IMG/VR virus record: IMGVR_UViG_3300017741_000046
Coordinates: 1 to 25,175 of that record
Reading direction: 5' to 3' (one strand)
DNA from: a virus
Length of the DNA stretch: 25,175 bases
In this document: piece after piece, positions 11,868 through 24,044 of the stretch
Layout of the letters: each line of letters opens with the position of its first letter
Position numbering within the stretch: the stretch's first letter is position 1
Notes under the pieces: generated by a model
The model's database searches: none
Told to the model about the DNA's origin: nothing
The model's input: the letters and a program-made list of their open reading frames with translations, nothing else
Program-made: the position numbers and the translations under genes

Positions 11868-12834
11868 TATAATTCTCTCCTAATCTGCTTTTCTCTTTGT
11901 CTGTTATCATATCGAACTTTTCTCTCATTCTACTTTCAGCATCTATCTGTGTAAGACCTTGGTCCTCGATAGCGCTTTGTACATTGTCAGCTGCATAGTT
12001 TCCATAATCACCAGCAAGTATTTCCTCACCAGTCATCTCTGGTTGTTGTTGTGCTGTAGCAGCTAAAGATTGATTCTGTTGATAAGAAGCTTCTGCTTCT
12101 TTGTACATTGTGTTAGATAACAGTTTAAGTTCAGAGGGATTAGGGTCTCTGTTTAAATCTGCAGCATAAAGTCTTTTTACTTTCTGTGCAATAGTTGCTG
12201 GGTCAGCTGGTAAGTAAGTCTCTGATTGTGGTATCTCTGGTACTGGATTAGCAACATATTCATCTAATGTTGTTTTCCATGCAGCACCATTAAGTTTTTC
12301 TACATCAGTAATACCACCTCTATTTGCTCTGCTTAACACTGGAGTAAAAGCTCTTTGAGTTGCTAGGTCCCATTCTCCTGGCATAAATCCATCACCAACA
12401 CTAAGTAGATTAGAGTTAATTAAATCTGCTTGTATGCCAGCAATCTCTTCTTCTGATTTGCCAGCGAATAAGTTAACTAAATCTGTTTCAGTATAGAAAT
12501 CTGTAGCACCAGAACGTGGAGGAACATAGTTAGCTGGTACACCTAAGACTGCATCTTGATTACCGAACTGTCCATATTGTTCAGTAGCTGCTGCTAATGC
12601 AACATTATCTCCTGTAACACCTGTTATGTCTTGTCCAGATGTAGCAAAGTCTATGACATATTGCGGAATGTTTGAAGATAATAAATATAAAGAAGCATCT
12701 TGTATTGTAGGTGCTGATAGTATATCTACTCTTTGTTCTGTTGTAATACCTATTTGATTGGTACCTAGTGAATCATCTTCATTAATCTGAAGTATTATAC
12801 TTTCTATTCTTTGTAAAAATTCATCAACTGTCAT
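11812..12834 (-). CDS. Predicted virion protein (340 aa)
   Basis: The family is not recognised. The protein is acidic and rich in Gln, Asn, Ala and Asp. Residues 1-30 form an amphipathic helix (VDEFLQRIESIILQINEDD). Around residues 125-165 there is a compact segment (TETDLVNLFAGKSEEEIAGIQ, then GFMPGEWDLATQRAF) whose pattern is reminiscent of small helical repeat domains. The C-terminal third is probably coiled coil. It overlaps the giant gene by 11 bases and the hydrolase gene by 56 bases, so all three are likely translated together. The context points to a virion or ejection protein. Confidence 0.75.
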   Translation of the reverse strand: MTVDEFLQRIESIILQINEDDSLGTNQIGITTEQRVDILSAPTIQDASLYLLSSNIPQYVIDFATSGQDITGVTGDNVALAAATEQYGQFGNQDAVLGVPANYVPPRSGATDFYTETDLVNLFAGKSEEEIAGIQADLINSNLLSVGDGFMPGEWDLATQRAFTPVLSRANRGGITDVEKLNGAAWKTTLDEYVANPVPEIPQSETYLPADPATIAQKVKRLYAADLNRDPNPSELKLLSNTMYKEAEASYQQNQSLAATAQQQPEMTGEEILAGDYGNYAADNVQSAIEDQGLTQIDAESRMREKFDMITDKEKSRLGENYSARNTRATILNSIANRPN

Positions 12835-15800
12835 TTAATCCTCTTATTAATTCTATATCTTCATCTGCTTCTCGGAGTTCTCTTTCAAAGATTTCTTTTG
12901 CTAAGGGTCCAAACTCTGGGTACTTAACCAATATACCTTGCATCTTGTTTCTTAACAAGCTTCTAAATGGTGCTAGTTTGTTTGAACTTCTAAAAGATTT
13001 GTCAGTATAGGTAGGATTTAATTTTTTTGTTTCTGCAATTACTGCATCTCTAGTCTTTACATACTCAACTAAACCTAATGCTGCTGGGTTAGTTGTCAGT
13101 GAACTGTCTAGTTGATAGCTAACTGGGTCGAACCATGTGTACAATTCATCAATCAAATCATCCATCTCTGGTTTAGTTTGTGAATAGTCTATGCTTCTAC
13201 CATAACCTGGGTACTTACTAGCTATCTCTGCTTTCTTATTTCTTTTAGCTTGTACAGAAACCTTATCGTTTCTTACTAACAATCCATTCTCTTTAACAAA
13301 GTTTTCATACTCAACGCTGCCTAAGAGAATGTTCTTAGCTTGTTGCCATTGTTCTATAGTTCTAGGAACTCTATCTCCACTAATAATCTGATTCCAATAT
13401 TGTTCGTACATGAACTCTGAATTAGTTTCATCTATTAAGAATGCGTAAGTTAAATCAAATTTCTCTACAAGTTCTGGGTTATTTCTCTCCCATGTAGCAC
13501 CATCAGCTGTGACTGGTCTTTTCTTTATAGTCTCTGTTCTACTGGTAGCTAATGTAATTGGGTTAAATCCAAATCTCTCTACGAATGTTTTAACTGCTGT
13601 AGAACTATCTGGTGAAGCATTAGATATATTTCTATACTCTTCGGCTAATGTTTCAAACAAGAATAGTTGTCCTGTCTTATCAGATATCTCATACTTAGGG
13701 CTTACAGCACCAGATGGTCCTATAGCTTGTGAGATACTTCTAATAATAAATATATTCCTGGCGTAGTCTCCTGCTAACTCCATACCTTCATTAGCTCCTT
13801 CTGGAGAACTATCATCAATCTTTCCTGCATACACCAAAGCTTTATACACATCAATGGTTGTATTGGAGAACATACGTTTAGATTCTGCTCCACCTATTCC
13901 AAAAGCAGTACCTAGTTTCTTTAACCAAGATGGTGCTGGTGCTAATGATGTTATAACTTCGCTAATAGTTTCTGTACGAGGTGGTGCAAAGTCTCCAAAC
14001 AATATTGTCTCTTCCCATTTACCTGGTCTCAATACATTAAACTTACGATTTATAAATGCAGCTGGCACTGTAATAGTTGGACCGAAACCTGGTATTAAGT
14101 TACCTGCTATATTTAAAGAACCAGCAAAGACTGGTAGGTTAACTTGTACACCATTCTCTGTTAAGTCTTTAAACATCCACTTTTGTATTAATCCTTCTCC
14201 TGGGTAACCAAATAACTCTTCATTAGTATTTGGGTCTTTGTAAAAGAATCCTTTTTGTCCAGAATCATCAAACACTGGGTTAGGTTTTTGTGCTGACTGT
14301 ACAAGCTGCTGCGCTCTACGTAAAGGTCTGCCTTGATTTTCTACAAGTAATCTACTCCAAGTACTAAAGATTTCTACGTATGCTTCACCGAATGGGAACA
14401 ATCCTCTAGTTGCATTACCTAATCTAGTTCTAGTAGATACATCATAAAGAAGTTTTTTAGTTTCAGTAAGCGCATGTGATGCACCTATCTTATCTATAAT
14501 CTCTACTTTGTTTATGCCGCCTTTAACTCCTTGGTAACTTTCTAATTTTTTAAGTACAGCTTTTTCATTCTTAGTTCCTGTAGCTAGTCCAGCTTCTTTA
14601 GCTTGTTGTACTAACTTCTTAAGTGTTGCTGCATTAGCATGTTGTGCAAAGTCTCCTACTTTGTCCCAGTAATGAAACTTAAAGGTTGGCGCTCTTGACA
14701 TTGTCTTAGTAGGAATAGTCATAAAGAAATTAAAAGATTCATCTACAAAGTCATCTAACCTTCTAGTTTGTGATGTCATTGCATTCTTTAACTCTCCACG
14801 TGCTTGTTCTGGTAATACTTTTTCAAACTTCTTAACGAAATCTTTTTTCATCTTCTCTTGATTTTTTCTTAACTGTGTAGTTATAGAAGTGTATTCAGCA
14901 TCACTAAGCTGACCAGCCCAGTATTTACCCATGTCTATATTTTCTAACCCTACTAACTCTGCAGCATCCATTGCTTCATCTGACAAAGCTTTAAGTAAAT
15001 CTTCTTTACCATTCTCATCTATCCAGTTTCTAGCAAGTCTTGCTCTATTACCTTTAGTGCTTGTCTCTACAATTCCACCAGTAACTTGTGCTACTGAAGC
15101 ATTTGCATAGTAAATAAACTCTTCTGCTTTAGCTTTACCTGGCGCACCATTAAAGCCAGCTCCTTTAAAAGCGTGTCCTTCTGCACCTGTAACTTTTCTA
15201 ATATGTTTATTTAATGGGTTACCTTGTGTCTGTGCTTCTTTAATTAATTTATTTAGCTGCGCTTTTCTAGCAGCAGTATTTGGTTCTAATTGTATTGCCG
15301 CAAGTCTCCTGGACAATGGGTCAAACTTGTGTTGCATAAAGTTTCTAAATGATGCTTCTCCCCAAGCTCTTCTATTCTCTTGTCTTGATACTGTAGTAAA
15401 TCTACCTGTTCCACCTGTTCTCCTGGAAGCAGAAGTTATACCTGCACCATTCAAAGTTACATCAATAAACTGTGCGTTATCTTCAAAAGAACCTAATAAC
15501 ATCTTGCTTGATTCTTTTTCTTTACCCATAGTTCTAGCAATCATTTGTGCTGGATGTGTAATAACATTAGTAACACCAGAAGATAACATTCTTAATTGTT
15601 CTTCTGCTATAACTCTTATTGTCCATGCTGGTCGTAATAGAACTAATGGTTTGAATAAGGCACCATAATACCAATCCATAAACCTTCTTGTTGATTCTAC
15701 ATTCCCAGAAGCTAGTAATTTAGTTCCTACTTTTCCTAGTGTCTCATCTAATGCTTTAGCAGAACGTATTAAAGCTTTAGGGTCTGGCAAATATATCTCA

Positions 15801-17539
15801 TCTGCTAACTGTGATGCAACTACTGGGTCTAATAAATTTTCAACACCATCTAACTTACCTCCTTGTAATTGTCTTAATACATTAGTTATTGGTACATCTC
15901 CACCAGATGAATCTATTGTATAACTTCTTACAGTATCTTTATTTTTCTTAGCGGTTCCAATAAACCTTGCCTGGACACTTAGTCCTTCATCAACTAATTT
16001 ACTTTGCCATTCAGATAACTTTGATGTAGCTGCTTTAACAGTAGTTTTTTCATCTACACCTGCTAGTCCACGTATAACAGCTGGTTTAAAATTTCTCTCT
16101 ATAAAGTTAGTAACAACTATTGCTGTTTGTGAAGGTGCATCTGCAGCACTAAGTGCTTTCATAGAATCTTTCATAAACTTATCTGCAGTTTTAGCAGCTT
16201 TATCTTTATCCATACTTGATGTAGCTAAACGTATAAATCTATTTAATGAAACTAAACTATCATTTTTATTTTCTGTAACAAGTCTTGTTCCATAAGTTCT
16301 TTCCATTCTTTTTGTTAAAAAATTACCTTTTCTTTTAACTGTAGGAACGTTGTTTAATGTTGCCTTTACTAATAATTTCTCATTAACTAATTCAGTAGTA
16401 AGCGCATCATCTATCTCATCAAATGATTTACCTTTATTTTTTGCTTTAAATTTATCTAAAGCAACATAAAAATCATAGTCATCAATATTATTTTTGGATG
16501 CTGCAATAATATCTGATGTATTGTTTTCCCATAAGAATTGTTTAAACTTTACACCATTCTTACCAGCAAGAAATTCTTGTGATGTTGGTCCGAATATAGT
16601 TTTACGTGTTCCCTGGAGTAATCCAGTATTTTCAAATAACTTACCTGCATTACTTAAATTTTCTAATTCAGTAAATGTTTTAGCACCAGCTCTAAGTTTT
16701 CCTACTCCTAGTGTTGCAAGACCTACTGGGTCTAAAAAGATTTGTGCAAGTATGTCTAAAGCACCAGTTATGTTGTTGTAGGCAGCTGTACCTGGTTCTA
16801 TAATCTCATCCACTGGTTTAAATAAAAAACGACCAATAGTTACTGTAGGGTCAAGTCCAGCTTCTTCAAATCTCTCTGCTCTCTCTCCAGTAAACTGTAT
16901 TGCTTCTTCTGCTTTTTTTCTTTGTTGCTCATAAATCTGTACACCTAAAACATTATCTAGTACAAACTCTCTAGCTACTAATGGGTCAACTCCAGCTGCT
17001 AACATGTTTTTGTATTCATCTGTTTGTGTTGGGTCAGTGCTACCTAGAAACCATCCTGTACCTAAATCAACTTCTTTACCTGCTGCTTCAGCTTGTGCTT
17101 TCATATCTAGTAATGAAGATTTAGATTTACCTTTAGCTTCATCGTGAGTCATACCTTGTTGTCTGCCTTCTAAATACCTAACTCCTCTAGCAGCTCCTGC
17201 TTCCCATAAGTTTTGGAATCCTAGGAATAAACCACGTGATGCACCTTTTGCTTTTTCTTTAACACTGATAGCTTCACGTAATTTAGAAAAACCATTCTGT
17301 TCTTTAGCTAAAGATTCTTTTAAAACTATTTGCTGCAATCTAGGGTCATTATCACTAATACCTAACTTGACTGCACCTACTAATGAACCTTTACTTATTG
17401 TTGGATATTTTTTTACAATAGCTGAAGCTTGGTTAGCCATAGCTTGTGTAGCTTGTGTTGGTGCAACAGATTTTTGTATCGCTCTTTCTGTAGCAGAATC
17501 ATCTGCAAAAGAAGCTGCATCAAAGGTACTGTATGCCAT
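12824..17539 (-). CDS. Giant virion protein, probable ejection/internal core protein (1571 aa)
   Basis: This is the largest gene of the window, one fifth of its length. It is predicted to be mostly helical, with Lys/Glu-rich regions. Conspicuous hydrophobic stretches lie near residue 270 (ALDILAQIFLDPVGLATLG), near 630 (GALFKPLVLLRPAWTIRVIA) and near 1050 (GLFPFGEAYVEIFSTWSRLL). A late Gly/Pro-rich hydrophobic segment reads LIPGFGPTITVPAAFI. No long heptad tape-measure pattern is visible, and no tail-tube genes are present. It is therefore more likely an internal protein ejected into the host, like T7 gp16, than a tape measure. No catalytic motif was found. The ribosome site is AAAAGGG, four bases before ATG, and it starts just after the 120-residue gene. 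Confidence 0.8.
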   Translation of the reverse strand: MAYSTFDAASFADDSATERAIQKSVAPTQATQAMANQASAIVKKYPTISKGSLVGAVKLGISDNDPRLQQIVLKESLAKEQNGFSKLREAISVKEKAKGASRGLFLGFQNLWEAGAARGVRYLEGRQQGMTHDEAKGKSKSSLLDMKAQAEAAGKEVDLGTGWFLGSTDPTQTDEYKNMLAAGVDPLVAREFVLDNVLGVQIYEQQRKKAEEAIQFTGERAERFEEAGLDPTVTIGRFLFKPVDEIIEPGTAAYNNITGALDILAQIFLDPVGLATLGVGKLRAGAKTFTELENLSNAGKLFENTGLLQGTRKTIFGPTSQEFLAGKNGVKFKQFLWENNTSDIIAASKNNIDDYDFYVALDKFKAKNKGKSFDEIDDALTTELVNEKLLVKATLNNVPTVKRKGNFLTKRMERTYGTRLVTENKNDSLVSLNRFIRLATSSMDKDKAAKTADKFMKDSMKALSAADAPSQTAIVVTNFIERNFKPAVIRGLAGVDEKTTVKAATSKLSEWQSKLVDEGLSVQARFIGTAKKNKDTVRSYTIDSSGGDVPITNVLRQLQGGKLDGVENLLDPVVASQLADEIYLPDPKALIRSAKALDETLGKVGTKLLASGNVESTRRFMDWYYGALFKPLVLLRPAWTIRVIAEEQLRMLSSGVTNVITHPAQMIARTMGKEKESSKMLLGSFEDNAQFIDVTLNGAGITSASRRTGGTGRFTTVSRQENRRAWGEASFRNFMQHKFDPLSRRLAAIQLEPNTAARKAQLNKLIKEAQTQGNPLNKHIRKVTGAEGHAFKGAGFNGAPGKAKAEEFIYYANASVAQVTGGIVETSTKGNRARLARNWIDENGKEDLLKALSDEAMDAAELVGLENIDMGKYWAGQLSDAEYTSITTQLRKNQEKMKKDFVKKFEKVLPEQARGELKNAMTSQTRRLDDFVDESFNFFMTIPTKTMSRAPTFKFHYWDKVGDFAQHANAATLKKLVQQAKEAGLATGTKNEKAVLKKLESYQGVKGGINKVEIIDKIGASHALTETKKLLYDVSTRTRLGNATRGLFPFGEAYVEIFSTWSRLLVENQGRPLRRAQQLVQSAQKPNPVFDDSGQKGFFYKDPNTNEELFGYPGEGLIQKWMFKDLTENGVQVNLPVFAGSLNIAGNLIPGFGPTITVPAAFINRKFNVLRPGKWEETILFGDFAPPRTETISEVITSLAPAPSWLKKLGTAFGIGGAESKRMFSNTTIDVYKALVYAGKIDDSSPEGANEGMELAGDYARNIFIIRSISQAIGPSGAVSPKYEISDKTGQLFLFETLAEEYRNISNASPDSSTAVKTFVERFGFNPITLATSRTETIKKRPVTADGATWERNNPELVEKFDLTYAFLIDETNSEFMYEQYWNQIISGDRVPRTIEQWQQAKNILLGSVEYENFVKENGLLVRNDKVSVQAKRNKKAEIASKYPGYGRSIDYSQTKPEMDDLIDELYTWFDPVSYQLDSSLTTNPAALGLVEYVKTRDAVIAETKKLNPTYTDKSFRSSNKLAPFRSLLRNKMQGILVKYPEFGPLAKEIFERELREADEDIELIRGLNDS

Positions 17540-19829: not shown

Positions 19830-21725
19830 TTACCATGGTGCTGTGTTCATATTACTAATATCAACATTGCCATAACTCGGTGTATATTCATGCGCCATGT
19901 CAGCAACAAATTCTTTTTGTAATCTTCTTACAATCTTAATTGGGAACCAACTTGCCATAACTATATCCGACTTATATCCTTTACTACTTGCCTTGCTAGC
20001 AGCATTTGAAAAATACAAAAGCTGCCTACGATATATATTACTCTTATTTTGCGAATCTGCACTACCATAAGGTAAATTTACTTTACCCTTATCAAAAAGT
20101 TCACTCATAGAACCTACGCCAAAGTATGGGTCAAATTTATTTTTTTGTGTCTGGTGTCCTTCTAAGTGTATGCCTTTAGCTGCAGTCCACTCTTTTAATT
20201 CTCTATCTTGTCGGATGGCACGCTGAAAACCATTCTCTTCAATAATCCAATGTGAGCAATGATATTTCTTGTACCACTCTTTAATTGTTTTAAATGCTTG
20301 GGGTATGCCGCCACCTTTAGTATTTTCTATATCTACCATGTACAGTTTGCCTTCTTCAACATTAAATGCCCATAAGAATGCTGCCTGGTATCCAGTTGCT
20401 GCTGGGTCAAGTCCCGCTATCAATCTACATCCAGCGGGTACATGCCCAATACTTCTTGACTCATCACGTGAAGCATCAAGTGATTCTACTTTAAACATCT
20501 GCAGCCCTTCGGAGAATGGTCGGTTAAGATATACCATTTCAAATATAGCTAACCCACCAGTCGTTTGTGCATTCCTTCTTTGTGACATAAGCCATTTGTA
20601 ACTTCTTTTGCTAGCCCAAAGCATGTGTTTCTTGTGGTCTTTATCTAGTCCAGAATCTATAGGTATCTCTAAACTATGTGCAGATTCAATTATCTTTTTC
20701 CATTCATCGTTATCAATTAACGAATTATATAAATCATCTGGGTGTTGCCTAGAGCCAATAACAACAATAGCTGTATGTTCCTCTTTACGTGATGATAGAG
20801 TTGTAGTCCACCATCGTTTAGTCTGCTCTCTTGAACTAGGTTGTATTGTTGTGGAATGGTCCTCAATGTCATCAGCAATAATCAAGTCACAGTCACGTGA
20901 AAGAATCTTGCCACCTTTACCTACAGCCACCATTGTCGGTGATTTAATACCAGTAACTGTCCTGGTCTTTACTGTGAACTGTCCAGAACTCCAAGTTTTA
21001 CCAGTTCTACTTTTAGGTTTAAATGTTTCTCCTGGTCCACAAAAATCTTGTATCAGCTGTTCGTTATTTTCTAAGTGGTCCAATACAGAACCTACAGCAT
21101 TCTTAGATATATCTTCGTTACCACCTACCCACATAATTCTAATGTTAGGTGCTTTACATATCTGCCATACAGCAAAGTGTGTAAGTAAATCTGTCTTACC
21201 ATGTCGAGGAGGTGAGAGAATCATAAGCTGTTCACCTTTATCAATAGACTTTAAAATATTTTTAATCCAGTTCTTATGGAACTTAGCGGTTTCGTAGGGT
21301 TGTCCAGTCTCTGTTAAGAAGTATCTATTTCTAAACTCTTCAAAAGATTCTAAAGATTTTCTAGCTTCTTCTGGTACATCCCAATCTTCTCTAGCTTCAT
21401 GTACTGCTTTATCTTCTCTGTATGCAAGCAGCATCCTGGCAACAACACTTTGGTCAATGCCCATATCTTCTGCTACAAACTTCTGTGTAATGATGCCTTC
21501 TAAGACTTCTTCTGCATAATCTTCTACAAAAGACATGTAATGTTCACCACGACTAGCTCTACTGTTTGGGGATGTAGCTAACTTAGTAGTTTCTTTTTTC
21601 TTTTTATTTCTTGCCCTGGCGTTAGCAGCTTTAGTACATTGCAGCTTGCAGTACTTTTGTCTGCCATGTTGTTGTTTAAATTTATCTCCACAGTGCGGAC
21701 ATGCAACTGTTTTAAGATTAGCCAT
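19830..21725 (-). CDS. terL: Terminase large subunit with N-terminal zinc and HTH-like region
   Basis: This 631-residue DNA-packaging motor has a complete ATPase and nuclease. The Walker A motif is SPPRHGKT (171-178) and Walker B is LIIADD (281-286) with IED after it. The nuclease acidic residues are D440 in AGLDPA, E496/E497 in WIIEENG and D587 in KSDIV. Ahead of the ATPase lies an extra region: C9-x2-C12, C26-x3-C30 (a zinc-ribbon-like set), a Lys/Arg-rich stretch, and residues 67-107, which resemble a helix-turn-helix (FVAEDMGIDQSVVARMLLAY). This could replace part of a small terminase subunit, none of which was identified nearby. The ATG overlaps the stop of the 47-residue gene as TAATG. 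The function is secure; the role of the N-terminus is inference. Confidence 0.92.
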   Translation of the reverse strand: MANLKTVACPHCGDKFKQQHGRQKYCKLQCTKAANARARNKKKKETTKLATSPNSRASRGEHYMSFVEDYAEEVLEGIITQKFVAEDMGIDQSVVARMLLAYREDKAVHEAREDWDVPEEARKSLESFEEFRNRYFLTETGQPYETAKFHKNWIKNILKSIDKGEQLMILSPPRHGKTDLLTHFAVWQICKAPNIRIMWVGGNEDISKNAVGSVLDHLENNEQLIQDFCGPGETFKPKSRTGKTWSSGQFTVKTRTVTGIKSPTMVAVGKGGKILSRDCDLIIADDIEDHSTTIQPSSREQTKRWWTTTLSSRKEEHTAIVVIGSRQHPDDLYNSLIDNDEWKKIIESAHSLEIPIDSGLDKDHKKHMLWASKRSYKWLMSQRRNAQTTGGLAIFEMVYLNRPFSEGLQMFKVESLDASRDESRSIGHVPAGCRLIAGLDPAATGYQAAFLWAFNVEEGKLYMVDIENTKGGGIPQAFKTIKEWYKKYHCSHWIIEENGFQRAIRQDRELKEWTAAKGIHLEGHQTQKNKFDPYFGVGSMSELFDKGKVNLPYGSADSQNKSNIYRRQLLYFSNAASKASSKGYKSDIVMASWFPIKIVRRLQKEFVADMAHEYTPSYGNVDISNMNTAPW

Positions 21726-22731: not shown

Positions 22732-22792
22732 ATAATACTATATAGGGGAAAAGTTTTTAATATTATGAAGAAGTTGTAATTAATATTCCTCT
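22732..22792. promoter_or_regulatory. Divergent promoter gap
   Basis: The gap holds -10-like boxes facing both ways: TATAGT for the minus-strand CxxC gene and TAATAT (22781-22786) for the plus-strand RNA/ORF. It is followed at 22794-22807 by the dyad TGATAA-AG-TTATCA, which could be an operator. No convincing -35 boxes are seen. Confidence 0.35.
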
Positions 22793-22927
22793 ATGATAAA
22801 GTTATCACACACAAACAGCAAGGACCAAGTAATTAGATACAGGTAAAGTGGACATCGGGAGTACGAAAGTCTCACCTTACAGCCAGTAAGACCAACTAGA
22901 AAGACAAGTGAGATACCCAAGGTCTAA
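22793..22927 (+). pseudogene. 45-codon frame interrupted by TAA, doubtful coding
   Basis: From ATG 22793 the frame reads 16 codons after Met to a TAA at 22844-22846, then continues without another stop for 26 protein-like codons (SGHREYESLTLQPVRP and on) to TAA at 22925. It could be a broken gene, a sequencing error or a stop-readthrough product. The same bases form nested RNA stems, which is the competing explanation. A TAATAT box sits six bases before the ATG. Confidence 0.3.
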
Positions 22928-22940
22928 GGAAACATCCTAG
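22822..22940 (+). ncRNA. Candidate structured RNA with nested stems
   Basis: Five pairings can be drawn. GGACC (22822-22826) pairs with GGTCT (22921-22925), enclosing GGG (22857-22859)/CCC (22916-22918), GTCTCAC (22869-22875)/GTGAGAT (22908-22914) and CTTAC-AGCCA-GTAAG (22876-22890). A final hairpin AGGA-AACA-TCCT (22927-22938) follows. Two pairs are G-U only on the plus strand, so a plus-strand RNA is favoured. The segment is less AT-rich than its surroundings. No known RNA family was recognised. Folding was done by eye, without energies. Confidence 0.4.
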
Positions 22941-23010
22941 CTTATAAAAGATTATATAAAAACAATAGCCCGCTACATCCTAAAGACCCCCCAGTAGAAT
23001 AAAGAACATA

Positions 23011-23130
23011 ATGAAATGCAAGAAGTGTAAGCGTACATTAAAGCGTGTTAACGATAACTTAGCTTACTGTGATAACTCACCTAATGTGTGTACCTTATCT
23101 ACAAAAACTATAGACATACACAACATATAG
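23011..23130 (+). CDS. Micro-protein with CxxC zinc-type motif (39 aa)
   Basis: The frame encodes MKCKKCKRTLKRVNDNLAYC and continues to a fourth cysteine at residue 27: C3-x2-C6-x13-C20-x6-C27, a plausible zinc-binding set at the end of a basic segment. The remaining 12 residues are polar. Only a weak AAAGAA precedes the ATG. The end overlaps a hairpin at 23126-23155. It is the third tiny cysteine-paired protein within one kilobase. The function is unknown; it may be a nucleic-acid-binding or transcription-modulating peptide. Confidence 0.6.
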   Translation: MKCKKCKRTLKRVNDNLAYCDNSPNVCTLSTKTIDIHNI

Positions 23131-23155
23131 TACCACTACATCTAGTAGCACTATA
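23126..23155 (+). terminator. Hairpin overlapping the stop of the 39-aa gene
   Basis: TATAGT/ACTATA (6 bp) encloses CTAC-ATCTA-GTAG (4 bp) with a small internal loop. It is AT-rich and lacks a U-run, so termination is uncertain; a dyad binding site is equally possible. Confidence 0.3.
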
Positions 23156-23425
23156 TATAGTAATTAATTGGCATTAAATAAATCTAGTGTTACGAATACG
23201 AATACCACCCCCTCAAATTAGCATTCCCATTGCTTGTCCTATAATCTATAATATGTTGCGTTAGAGGGTCTATGTTTCCTAGGGTTTACAGATAAAAGCC
23301 CTGTTTCACTGGTTATTAGATAGTATGTCTAAAAGTACCCCAGTTATTTTTCTGAATGGATATGGCATGGGCTGAATTGCTGAGGATTGTTAGATAACAC
23401 TGAATAAAAAATATTTAAAATACTT
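23131..23425. other. Gene-poor intergenic region before the early block
   Basis: No convincing gene is seen on either strand; the only frames are shorter than about 25 codons and lack ribosome sites. The region holds a sigma70-like promoter at 23224-23252, a tandem ACGAATACGAATACC repeat near 23190, and an AGGGTTT/AAAGCCCT hairpin near 23280-23300. It probably acts as the control region of the plus-strand genes. Confidence 0.5.
23224..23252 (+). promoter_or_regulatory. Sigma70-type promoter upstream of early genes
   Basis: TTCCCA (4/6 match to -35) is followed after 17 bases by a perfect TATAAT at 23247-23252; another TATAAT lies at 23240-23245. Transcription would begin near 23259 and give a leader of about 200 bases before the P-loop gene. 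Confidence 0.5.
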
Positions 23426-23455
23426 GTAACCTTTTGTAACTGCATAGAGTCAAAG
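23426..23455 (+). promoter_or_regulatory. Copy B of GTAACC-N17-GTC(T)AAG element
   Basis: GTAACC at 23426, a 17-base spacer and GTCAAAG at 23449-23455. The ATG of the P-loop gene begins eight bases after GTC. A second GTAAC lies inside the spacer (TTGTAAC repeated after three bases). If GTAACC and TCAAAG act as -35/-10 boxes, the transcript would start at or next to the ATG. Confidence 0.55.
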
Positions 23456-23459
23456 CAGT

Positions 23460-24044
23460 ATGAAACAAACAAACAATATTACATTCATGATAGGTGCAAG
23501 CGGGAGCGGTAAGTCTGCCCATGTTGCTAAGGAAGCAGCAAGGACTAATGCGTTCGTGATTGACCCCGATGAAATCAAGGCGAAACTAAACAAGGACCAA
23601 CCACTATCAAAAGATATCAATGCGGAGCTGCACCCAGCAGCCAGCGACATTGCTTCAAAGATGCTTGAGTTTTATTTCAATGATACTCAAGGATTTTTAG
23701 ACAACTACAGCTGTAACAATGTCATCTTCGATAATCGTGGCAAGTCACCAATAAAAGTACTGAAGAGGATACAAGCAGCAAAAGAAGCTGGACTATCTGT
23801 AAAGGTTATTTACGTAGAAGTAGAACTCCTTAATTGCTTAATCAATGTATTCATTAGGAATCTTAAAAGCAATAGGGCTATGTATCTTCAAGAAGTAATC
23901 AACGCTTATGATTCCATGAAGATATCAGTTGCAATATGCAGGATGCTGCACGTTACAGGAATCATTGAGATGCAAACAGTACAAGGATACAGAAGAATAA
24001 AATCTAAAAGAATATGTAACCTTCTCAAAGTCGGGAGGGTCTAA
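23460..24044 (+). CDS. P-loop kinase, zeta-toxin/polynucleotide-kinase-like
   Basis: This 194-residue protein begins with a beta strand and a Walker A motif (GASGSGKS, residues 12-19), followed by FVIDPDEIKAKL (D35, D37), the substrate-binding/catalytic Asp segment of zeta-toxin-like kinases. NNVIFDNRGKS (86-96) is the second conserved loop, and FIRNLKSNR (131-139) could provide the lid arginines R133 and R139. Family members phosphorylate UDP-N-acetylglucosamine (zeta toxins) or nucleic-acid ends; which applies here is unknown. No antitoxin gene is recognised beside it. The ATG follows the repeated GTAACC element, without a ribosome site. Its last codons contain the next copy of that element. 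An early host-takeover or nucleic-acid repair role is inference. Confidence 0.7.
   Translation: MKQTNNITFMIGASGSGKSAHVAKEAARTNAFVIDPDEIKAKLNKDQPLSKDINAELHPAASDIASKMLEFYFNDTQGFLDNYSCNNVIFDNRGKSPIKVLKRIQAAKEAGLSVKVIYVEVELLNCLINVFIRNLKSNRAMYLQEVINAYDSMKISVAICRMLHVTGIIEMQTVQGYRRIKSKRICNLLKVGRV

Follow-up and report, generated by a model that had tools for sequence, protein, structure and literature searches.

What is carried by the DNA between two divergent gene blocks of a virus genome when no gene accounts for it, and what might it do for the virus? The question is raised by the window analysed here, the whole 25,175-nucleotide stretch of IMG/VR virus record IMGVR_UViG_3300017741_000046, in which segment 22822-22940 is non-coding and lies between minus-strand structural genes and plus-strand genes. 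The first-pass annotation, made from the letters alone, described this segment as a possible undescribed structured RNA built from four nested pairings. The letters of all four (GGACC/GGTCT, GGG/CCC, GTCTCAC/GTGAGAT and CTTAC/GTAAG) are indeed present, the segment is less AT-rich than its surroundings, as claimed (43 % GC vs 23-28 % in the upstream flank), and no intact gene covers it, the number of listed ORFs over 22822-22940 being zero. Combining homologue searches with tests of covariation, this article provides an assessment of the structure, distribution and possible mode of action of the RNA, here termed class X.

A conserved fold established by homologues

Folding of the window's own sequence is uninformative. 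The folding-energy check that had been recommended against shuffled controls gave a value no better than chance (z = -0.81, with 37 of 200 shuffles as good), and with corrected ends the value, z = -1.04, was still not significant. It is sequence comparison among homologues, not single-sequence folding, that settles the structure. A 22-base piece recurs unchanged in 12 IMG/VR contigs, with approximately 180 bases around it nearly invariant and differing flanks, and a terminase search added 80 more loci, many of which carry diverged copies of the RNA. In a covariation alignment of 36 versions (counts elsewhere rest on 36 to 97 distinct versions), helices P1, P1b, P2 and P3 pair in 95.6 % of cells, and both sides have changed in 176 cells vs 60.5 in shuffles. 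When the 3' partners are shifted by 1-3 columns, pairing falls to 32-47 %, and RNAalifold recovered P1b (RGU/ACY) unprompted. Because relatedness can mimic covariation, a tree null was applied as a stand-in for R-scape, with columns evolving independently along the tree, each with its own number of changes, in 300 simulations. The floor of this test (p = 0.0033, or 1/301) was reached by five pairs of P3 and three of P1, by the varying pair of P1b, by the outer pair of P2 and by the pseudoknot pair. The covariation check that the annotation had called for is, then, strongly positive.

The helices differ in how they vary (Table 1). The six P1 pairs have tree-null values of 0.003-0.013, and compensation in P1b takes the form of G-C in 28 sequences and A-U in 8 (p 0.003). 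The P2 pair 22850-22864 occurs in GC, UA, UG and CG versions (p 0.003). P3 is paired in 100 % of cells, with five of six modelled pairs doubly changed and p 0.003 for five pairs; it is the GTCTCAC/GTGAGAT stem seen in the letters of the window, now borne out across homologues. The CTTAC/GTAAG stem likewise stands, as P4, for which the 37 distinct versions hold approximately ten different stem sequences, including CUUAC/GUAAG, CAUGC/GCAUG, CAGG/CCUG, AUCG/CGAU and AUAGGU/ACCUAU, in a register that differs between subtypes. The two remaining pairings have to be replaced. Opposite an unchanged GGTC, homologues show GGAGC, GGAGA and other sequences, and the true closing helix P1 is UUAGAU/GUCUAA; as for GGG/CCC, the CCC pairs instead with RGU to form P1b, and the partner of the CGGG loop is CCCG at 22969-22972. 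Stem-breaking substitutions lacking compensation, which the annotation had named as grounds for rejecting its proposal, are therefore absent from the inner stems and present in the outer GGACC/GGTCT pairing.

Table 1. Coordinates of the class X locus and its neighbours in the window
Feature	Position	Strand	Remarks
Terminase large subunit	19830-21725	-	Structural block
Sigma-70-type promoter	22774-22802	+	-35 TTGTAA 22774-22779; 17-base spacer; extended -10 TGA-TAAAGT 22794-22802
Class X leader core, P1 to P1'	22833-22927	+	Match of covariance model R1 (built with the window sequence among its members) at 22831-22929, 93.6 bits
P1, UUAGAU / GUCUAA	22833-22838 / 22922-22927	+	5/6 pairs doubly changed
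P1b, GGU / ACC	22842-22844 / 22915-22917	+	Covariation
P2 hairpin	22850-22864	+	22850-22853 with 22861-22864; G-A mismatch 22851-22863
P2 loop, AUCGGGA	22854-22860	+	7 bases; anticodon-like U at second position
Pseudoknot 5' strand, CGGG	22856-22859	+	R/Y covariation; tree null p 0.003
P3, GUCUCAC / GUGAGAU	22869-22875 / 22908-22914	+	Covariation
P4 hairpin, CUUAC-AGCCA-GUAAG	22876-22890	+	4-6 perfect pairs in 37/37 distinct versions
Downstream motif GCCCGCUA	22968-22975	+	Pseudoknot 3' strand CCCG, 22969-22972; covariation
39-aa ORF MKCKKCKRTLKRVNDNLAYCDNSPNVCTLSTKTIDIHNI	23011-23130	+	CxxC..C..C; first ORF after RNA; 76 variants, selection

The pseudoknot joins the CRGG of the P2 loop to a CCYG motif located 38-51 bases past P1' in all versions that extend far enough (approximately 41 bases in the window), the consensus being AUC[R]GGA for the loop and GCC[Y]G[Y]U for the downstream motif. 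Among 97 distinct sequences, the R/Y pair is G-C in 50, A-U in 47 and anything else in none, and the other complement is never present in the downstream-motif stretch. For the Y column, the loop R is the column with which it covaries best (G 96, next best 42). The pair switches state several times on the terminase tree, although the switch count of 10 includes the class Y clade described below and a record that is truncated, and may also reflect exchange of the leader relative to the terminase. Base changes gave no support to a hairpin around CCYG, which was also considered. In two loci (L074 and L109), a CAGGC shortly 5' of the GCCUG motif could pair with GCCUG and so compete with the pseudoknot, which might amount to a switch built into the leader of some lineages.

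Judged by covariation, then, the region 22833-22975 holds a conserved RNA with helices P1, P1b, P2, P3 and P4 and a pseudoknot, and that a conserved structured RNA exists at this locus is virtually certain. The leader is compact, with approximately 140 bases and four helices plus the pseudoknot; P1/P1b enclose P2 and P3-P4 around a three-way junction, many unpaired bases are invariant, and the joining segments are long, invariant and rich in purines. The strand is fixed by G-U pairs, as had been anticipated: G22869-U22914 is G-U in 36 of 36 versions, and U22838-G22922 is U-G except in a few lineages, which have C-A. Since the retained G-U pairs would be A-C mismatches in an antisense RNA, strand and promoter agree.

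The same evidence bears on whether the element is an RNA at all, as opposed to a conserved DNA element (for example, an origin or an operator) or a gene remnant. Its location between divergent genes, in a control region of the kind that often contains origins and operators, would suit a DNA element, as would a folding energy that does not surpass that of shuffles. However, compensatory changes occur in five helices and the pseudoknot when judged against both shuffle and tree nulls, G-U pairs are kept on one strand only, there is no reading frame, and the length differences in P4 are not in threes. A DNA element or gene remnant is thus exceedingly improbable, and for practical purposes covariation refutes it.

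Promoter and probable position in the transcript

The annotation placed the RNA after a -10-like TAATAT; the actual -10 is TAAAGT, extended by TGA and preceded 17 bases upstream by TTGTAA. Best promoter scores average 9.26 across 77 distinct upstream sequences vs 4.18 in shuffles, and in most of these sequences the -10 ends 24-30 bases before P1. The transcription start site would fall downstream of this promoter, and the rightward, plus-strand block is probably early. Scanned proteins of the window and of its most complete relative included no recognisable polymerase, which makes dependence on the host enzyme plausible. Together, these data strongly suggest that class X is the 5' leader of a rightward early transcript that the RNA polymerase of the host synthesises, and the general picture first drawn for the locus, that of a structured, plus-strand phage RNA behind a sigma-70-like promoter between two divergent gene blocks, is upheld. 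The suggested regulatory role is also in keeping with the position and architecture of the leader.

Two observations concern the genomes themselves. A 38,975-base relative (L308/L309), whose first 50 bases recur at 37,384, looks terminally redundant at approximately 37.4 kb, and those of its proteins that were scanned included no recognisable polymerase, only an exonuclease-like protein. Within the structural block of the window, 12824-17539 encodes a 1571-aa protein that has no PHROG match.

Distribution and novelty

The core motif ACARGTRAAGNNGRNATCRGGAG occurs in at least 119 virus contigs, one of which (L163) has the motif without the rest of the element. Class X is found once per record (13 of 13), lies on the strand opposite the terminase in 47 of 47 loci, and is retained over terminase divergence down to approximately 53 % identity. 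In 84,980 prokaryotic genomes, six matches to ACARGTRAAGNNGRNATCRGGAG were obtained, all of them without the remainder of the element and hence probably due to chance; a covariance model search of 299 genomes of one phylum returned zero matches. A phage collection searched with three versions of the RNA and with the small protein encoded downstream gave no credible match among named phages, and the terminase has no relative closer than approximately 30 % in that collection, which may omit very near records. As far as has been seen, class X is confined to one phage family, of which the collection searched contains no cultured member. The names of the contigs bear no environment label, and a marine setting is a guess based on the general appearance of the genomes.

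Rfam likewise holds no counterpart: at the gathering score there were zero matches in the window or in 14 related loci, and at E values up to 5 only chance matches arose for the window and one high-scoring member. The open-licence literature searched contains no description of the class. The claim that the RNA is undescribed thus fits the zero Rfam family matches found even at a permissive threshold; the class is apparently new, though structured phage leader RNA as a kind is already known.

The downstream ORF and a substitute leader

In most lineages, a zinc-ribbon-like ORF of 36-40 aa begins 82-94 bases after P1' (76 variants), with the consensus MKCKECxNTLKQ...YYCDSSPTxCSxSTK. By its median dN/dS of 0.34, this small ORF looks to be a real gene under selection. 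Comparison of the protein with Pfam and PHROG gave no family above cut-off, and assignment to Com or another known zinc family was set aside, the matches being weak and below threshold. A Shine-Dalgarno-like site precedes none of 63 distinct copies of the ORF vs 16 of 35 other genes. In a deep clade, with terminases 53-55 % identical to that of the window, class X is present and the small ORF is absent, and the deep-clade records, some of which are fragments, yielded no copy of the protein. Since this clade keeps the RNA without the ORF, class X is not simply the switch of the small ORF.

Conversely, the ORF can follow another leader. Among 80 loci found via the small protein, class X lies upstream in 64 (two of them cut by contig ends) and class Y, a different leader of approximately 170 bases, in 16. 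The class Y clade is nested among class X carriers by terminase, and in it the same promoter and ORF surround the new leader. As typified by L283 (1790-1960), class Y is unrelated to class X and has compensated stems, with CCAGCT/AGCTGG becoming CTGGCT/AGCCAG in L298 and CTAGCT/AGCTAG in L272; it is also found in L052-L054, L056, L060, L061, L232, L287, L289, L290, L294 and L297, and has zero Rfam matches. Further downstream, genes vary between lineages while class X stays, and they share no evident pathway. In the window, 23130-23460 forms a second conserved non-coding stretch, with a promoter-like TTAGCA-N16-TATAAT at 23218-23245 and with AGGGTTTACAGATAAAAGCCCT, a possible hairpin in which L020 differs; the next larger gene (23460-24044, plus strand) encodes a P-loop kinase of the AAA_33/zeta-toxin type.

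This arrangement invites the view that class X is a binding site for a protein, either the phage zinc-ribbon protein encoded downstream, in an autoregulatory loop, or a host protein, somewhat as Com of phage Mu binds mom mRNA. The RNA and the CxxC..C..C protein adjoin in most lineages, the protein is under purifying selection, and the start of its ORF has no Shine-Dalgarno-like site in any of the 63 copies. However, the RNA persists in the clade where no copy of the protein was found (among records that are partly fragments), class Y lineages keep the protein without class X, and the protein is not a recognised member of Com. A protein-binding leader is, on balance, quite improbable.

A riboswitch-type leader, in which the core would bind a metabolite of the infected cell, stabilise the pseudoknot and so change expression of the small ORF or early operon, draws on the fold as well as on the neighbourhood. 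The three-way junction with its invariant purine-rich joints and its pseudoknot between loop and downstream strand is aptamer-like, an unrelated leader class can substitute before the same ORF, and in most lineages the RNA precedes an ORF of 36-40 aa in the manner of the Downstream-peptide motif (PMC2864571). Weighing against this are the failure to find either a terminator or a hidden ribosome site, a pseudoknot strand that lies approximately 38 bases before the ORF, the retention of the RNA in the clade that has no small ORF, and downstream genes with no evident common pathway, so that such a leader is judged unlikely.

Similarly doubtful is a stand-alone RNA that is processed or terminated after the pseudoknot and acts in trans, its target being, e.g., the host polymerase, a regulator of the host or a defence system. 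Class X varies less than any of the ORFs around it and probably predates the small ORF, each genome has a single copy under a promoter of its own, and a gap of several hundred bases often lies 3' of the small ORF; yet there is no intrinsic terminator 3' of the RNA, and the near-constant distance of 82-94 bases to the ORF suggests a shared transcript.

Proposed mode of action

A cis-acting early leader of some kind is quite probable. In the explanation that we favour, to which, as a whole and with its mechanism included, we assign a probability of only about 0.35, host RNA polymerase would start the rightward early transcript at the 22774-22802 promoter, and class X, as its 5' leader, would work in cis as nascent RNA. 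The pseudoknot would close once transcription passes the CCYG motif, and the folded RNA would then act on the host transcription machinery, letting the early transcript be completed, as the put RNA of phage HK022 does. Scans for terminators and for Shine-Dalgarno-like sites found no expression platform for class X; terminator-like sites lie within 450 bases in 10 % of lineages vs 5 % in controls, and there is none in the window. A cis device that acts on polymerase fits this missing platform, for it needs neither a terminator nor a ribosome site, and action on the host transcription machinery is favoured because neither a terminator nor a ribosome site within reach of the fold was found and the downstream genes vary. 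RNA polymerase as the target of class X is nonetheless a tentative choice.

Several points count against a put-like leader. The terminators that the RNA would overcome were not found nearby, and the RNA is missing from the long structural operon of the opposite strand. The invariant unpaired bases would suit the binding of a ligand or protein equally well, and the replacement of class X by class Y before the same ORF hints that what the leader does may be linked to that ORF. It is also conceivable, though somewhat unlikely, that class X is an RNA-only device unrelated to put, with which this phage family exerts control over host RNA polymerase from roughly the first 160 bases of its early transcript, class Y doing the same job in one clade.

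Class X constitutes a well-supported structured RNA class without an Rfam match, for which a covariance model is ready for use, and its CRGG/CCYG pseudoknot, which can be broken and restored, offers a clear test. That class Y can stand in for class X in front of one and the same gene amounts to a natural experiment on the role of the leader. If class X does act on RNA polymerase, it would represent protein-free transcription control by a phage RNA that arose separately from put.

Comparison with known RNAs

The EAR element (epsC motif, RF01735) of Bacillus eps operons is a compact, pseudoknotted leader of long operons that is proposed to aid processive transcription. Class X is likewise a compact, pseudoknotted leader RNA, but it has no Rfam match, and hosts and structure differ. 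The manA and wcaG RNAs, first known from metagenomes, are structured RNAs in the 5' leaders of marine cyanophages (PMC2864571). Whereas those precede metabolic genes, class X, again with no Rfam match, lies in an early control region. Another marine example, the Downstream-peptide motif, is a leader before a tiny ORF in marine cyanobacteria (PMC2864571). With this motif (RF01704) and the glnA riboswitches, class X shares a 5' leader position approximately 20-25 bases from the start site, a tiny ORF and a marine setting, the start site being presumed and the setting a guess in the case of class X. RF01704, a riboswitch that binds glutamine, precedes an ORF of 17-100 aa, as class X does in most lineages but not in the deep clade. 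Class X does not match these Rfam models at E values up to 5, is found only in viruses, and has no nitrogen link that we could see.

The closest parallel is drawn with HK022, whose put RNA acts unaided on the elongation complex as early genes are transcribed, the nascent RNA binding the complex and suppressing pausing and termination (PMC9378689). Like put, class X would belong to a phage early transcript, directly after the early promoter (the early block being probable here), and would be an RNA element read by host polymerase that does not depend on one downstream gene. It differs in its architecture, for put consists of two simple stem-loops, whereas class X is a pseudoknotted three-way junction that lacks stem-loops of the put type and bears no relation to put that Rfam can detect. 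There is one put RNA per early operon, and class X is present as a single copy. By analogy, then, class X would resemble put in position and mode rather than by membership, with antitermination as the activity proposed for it here.
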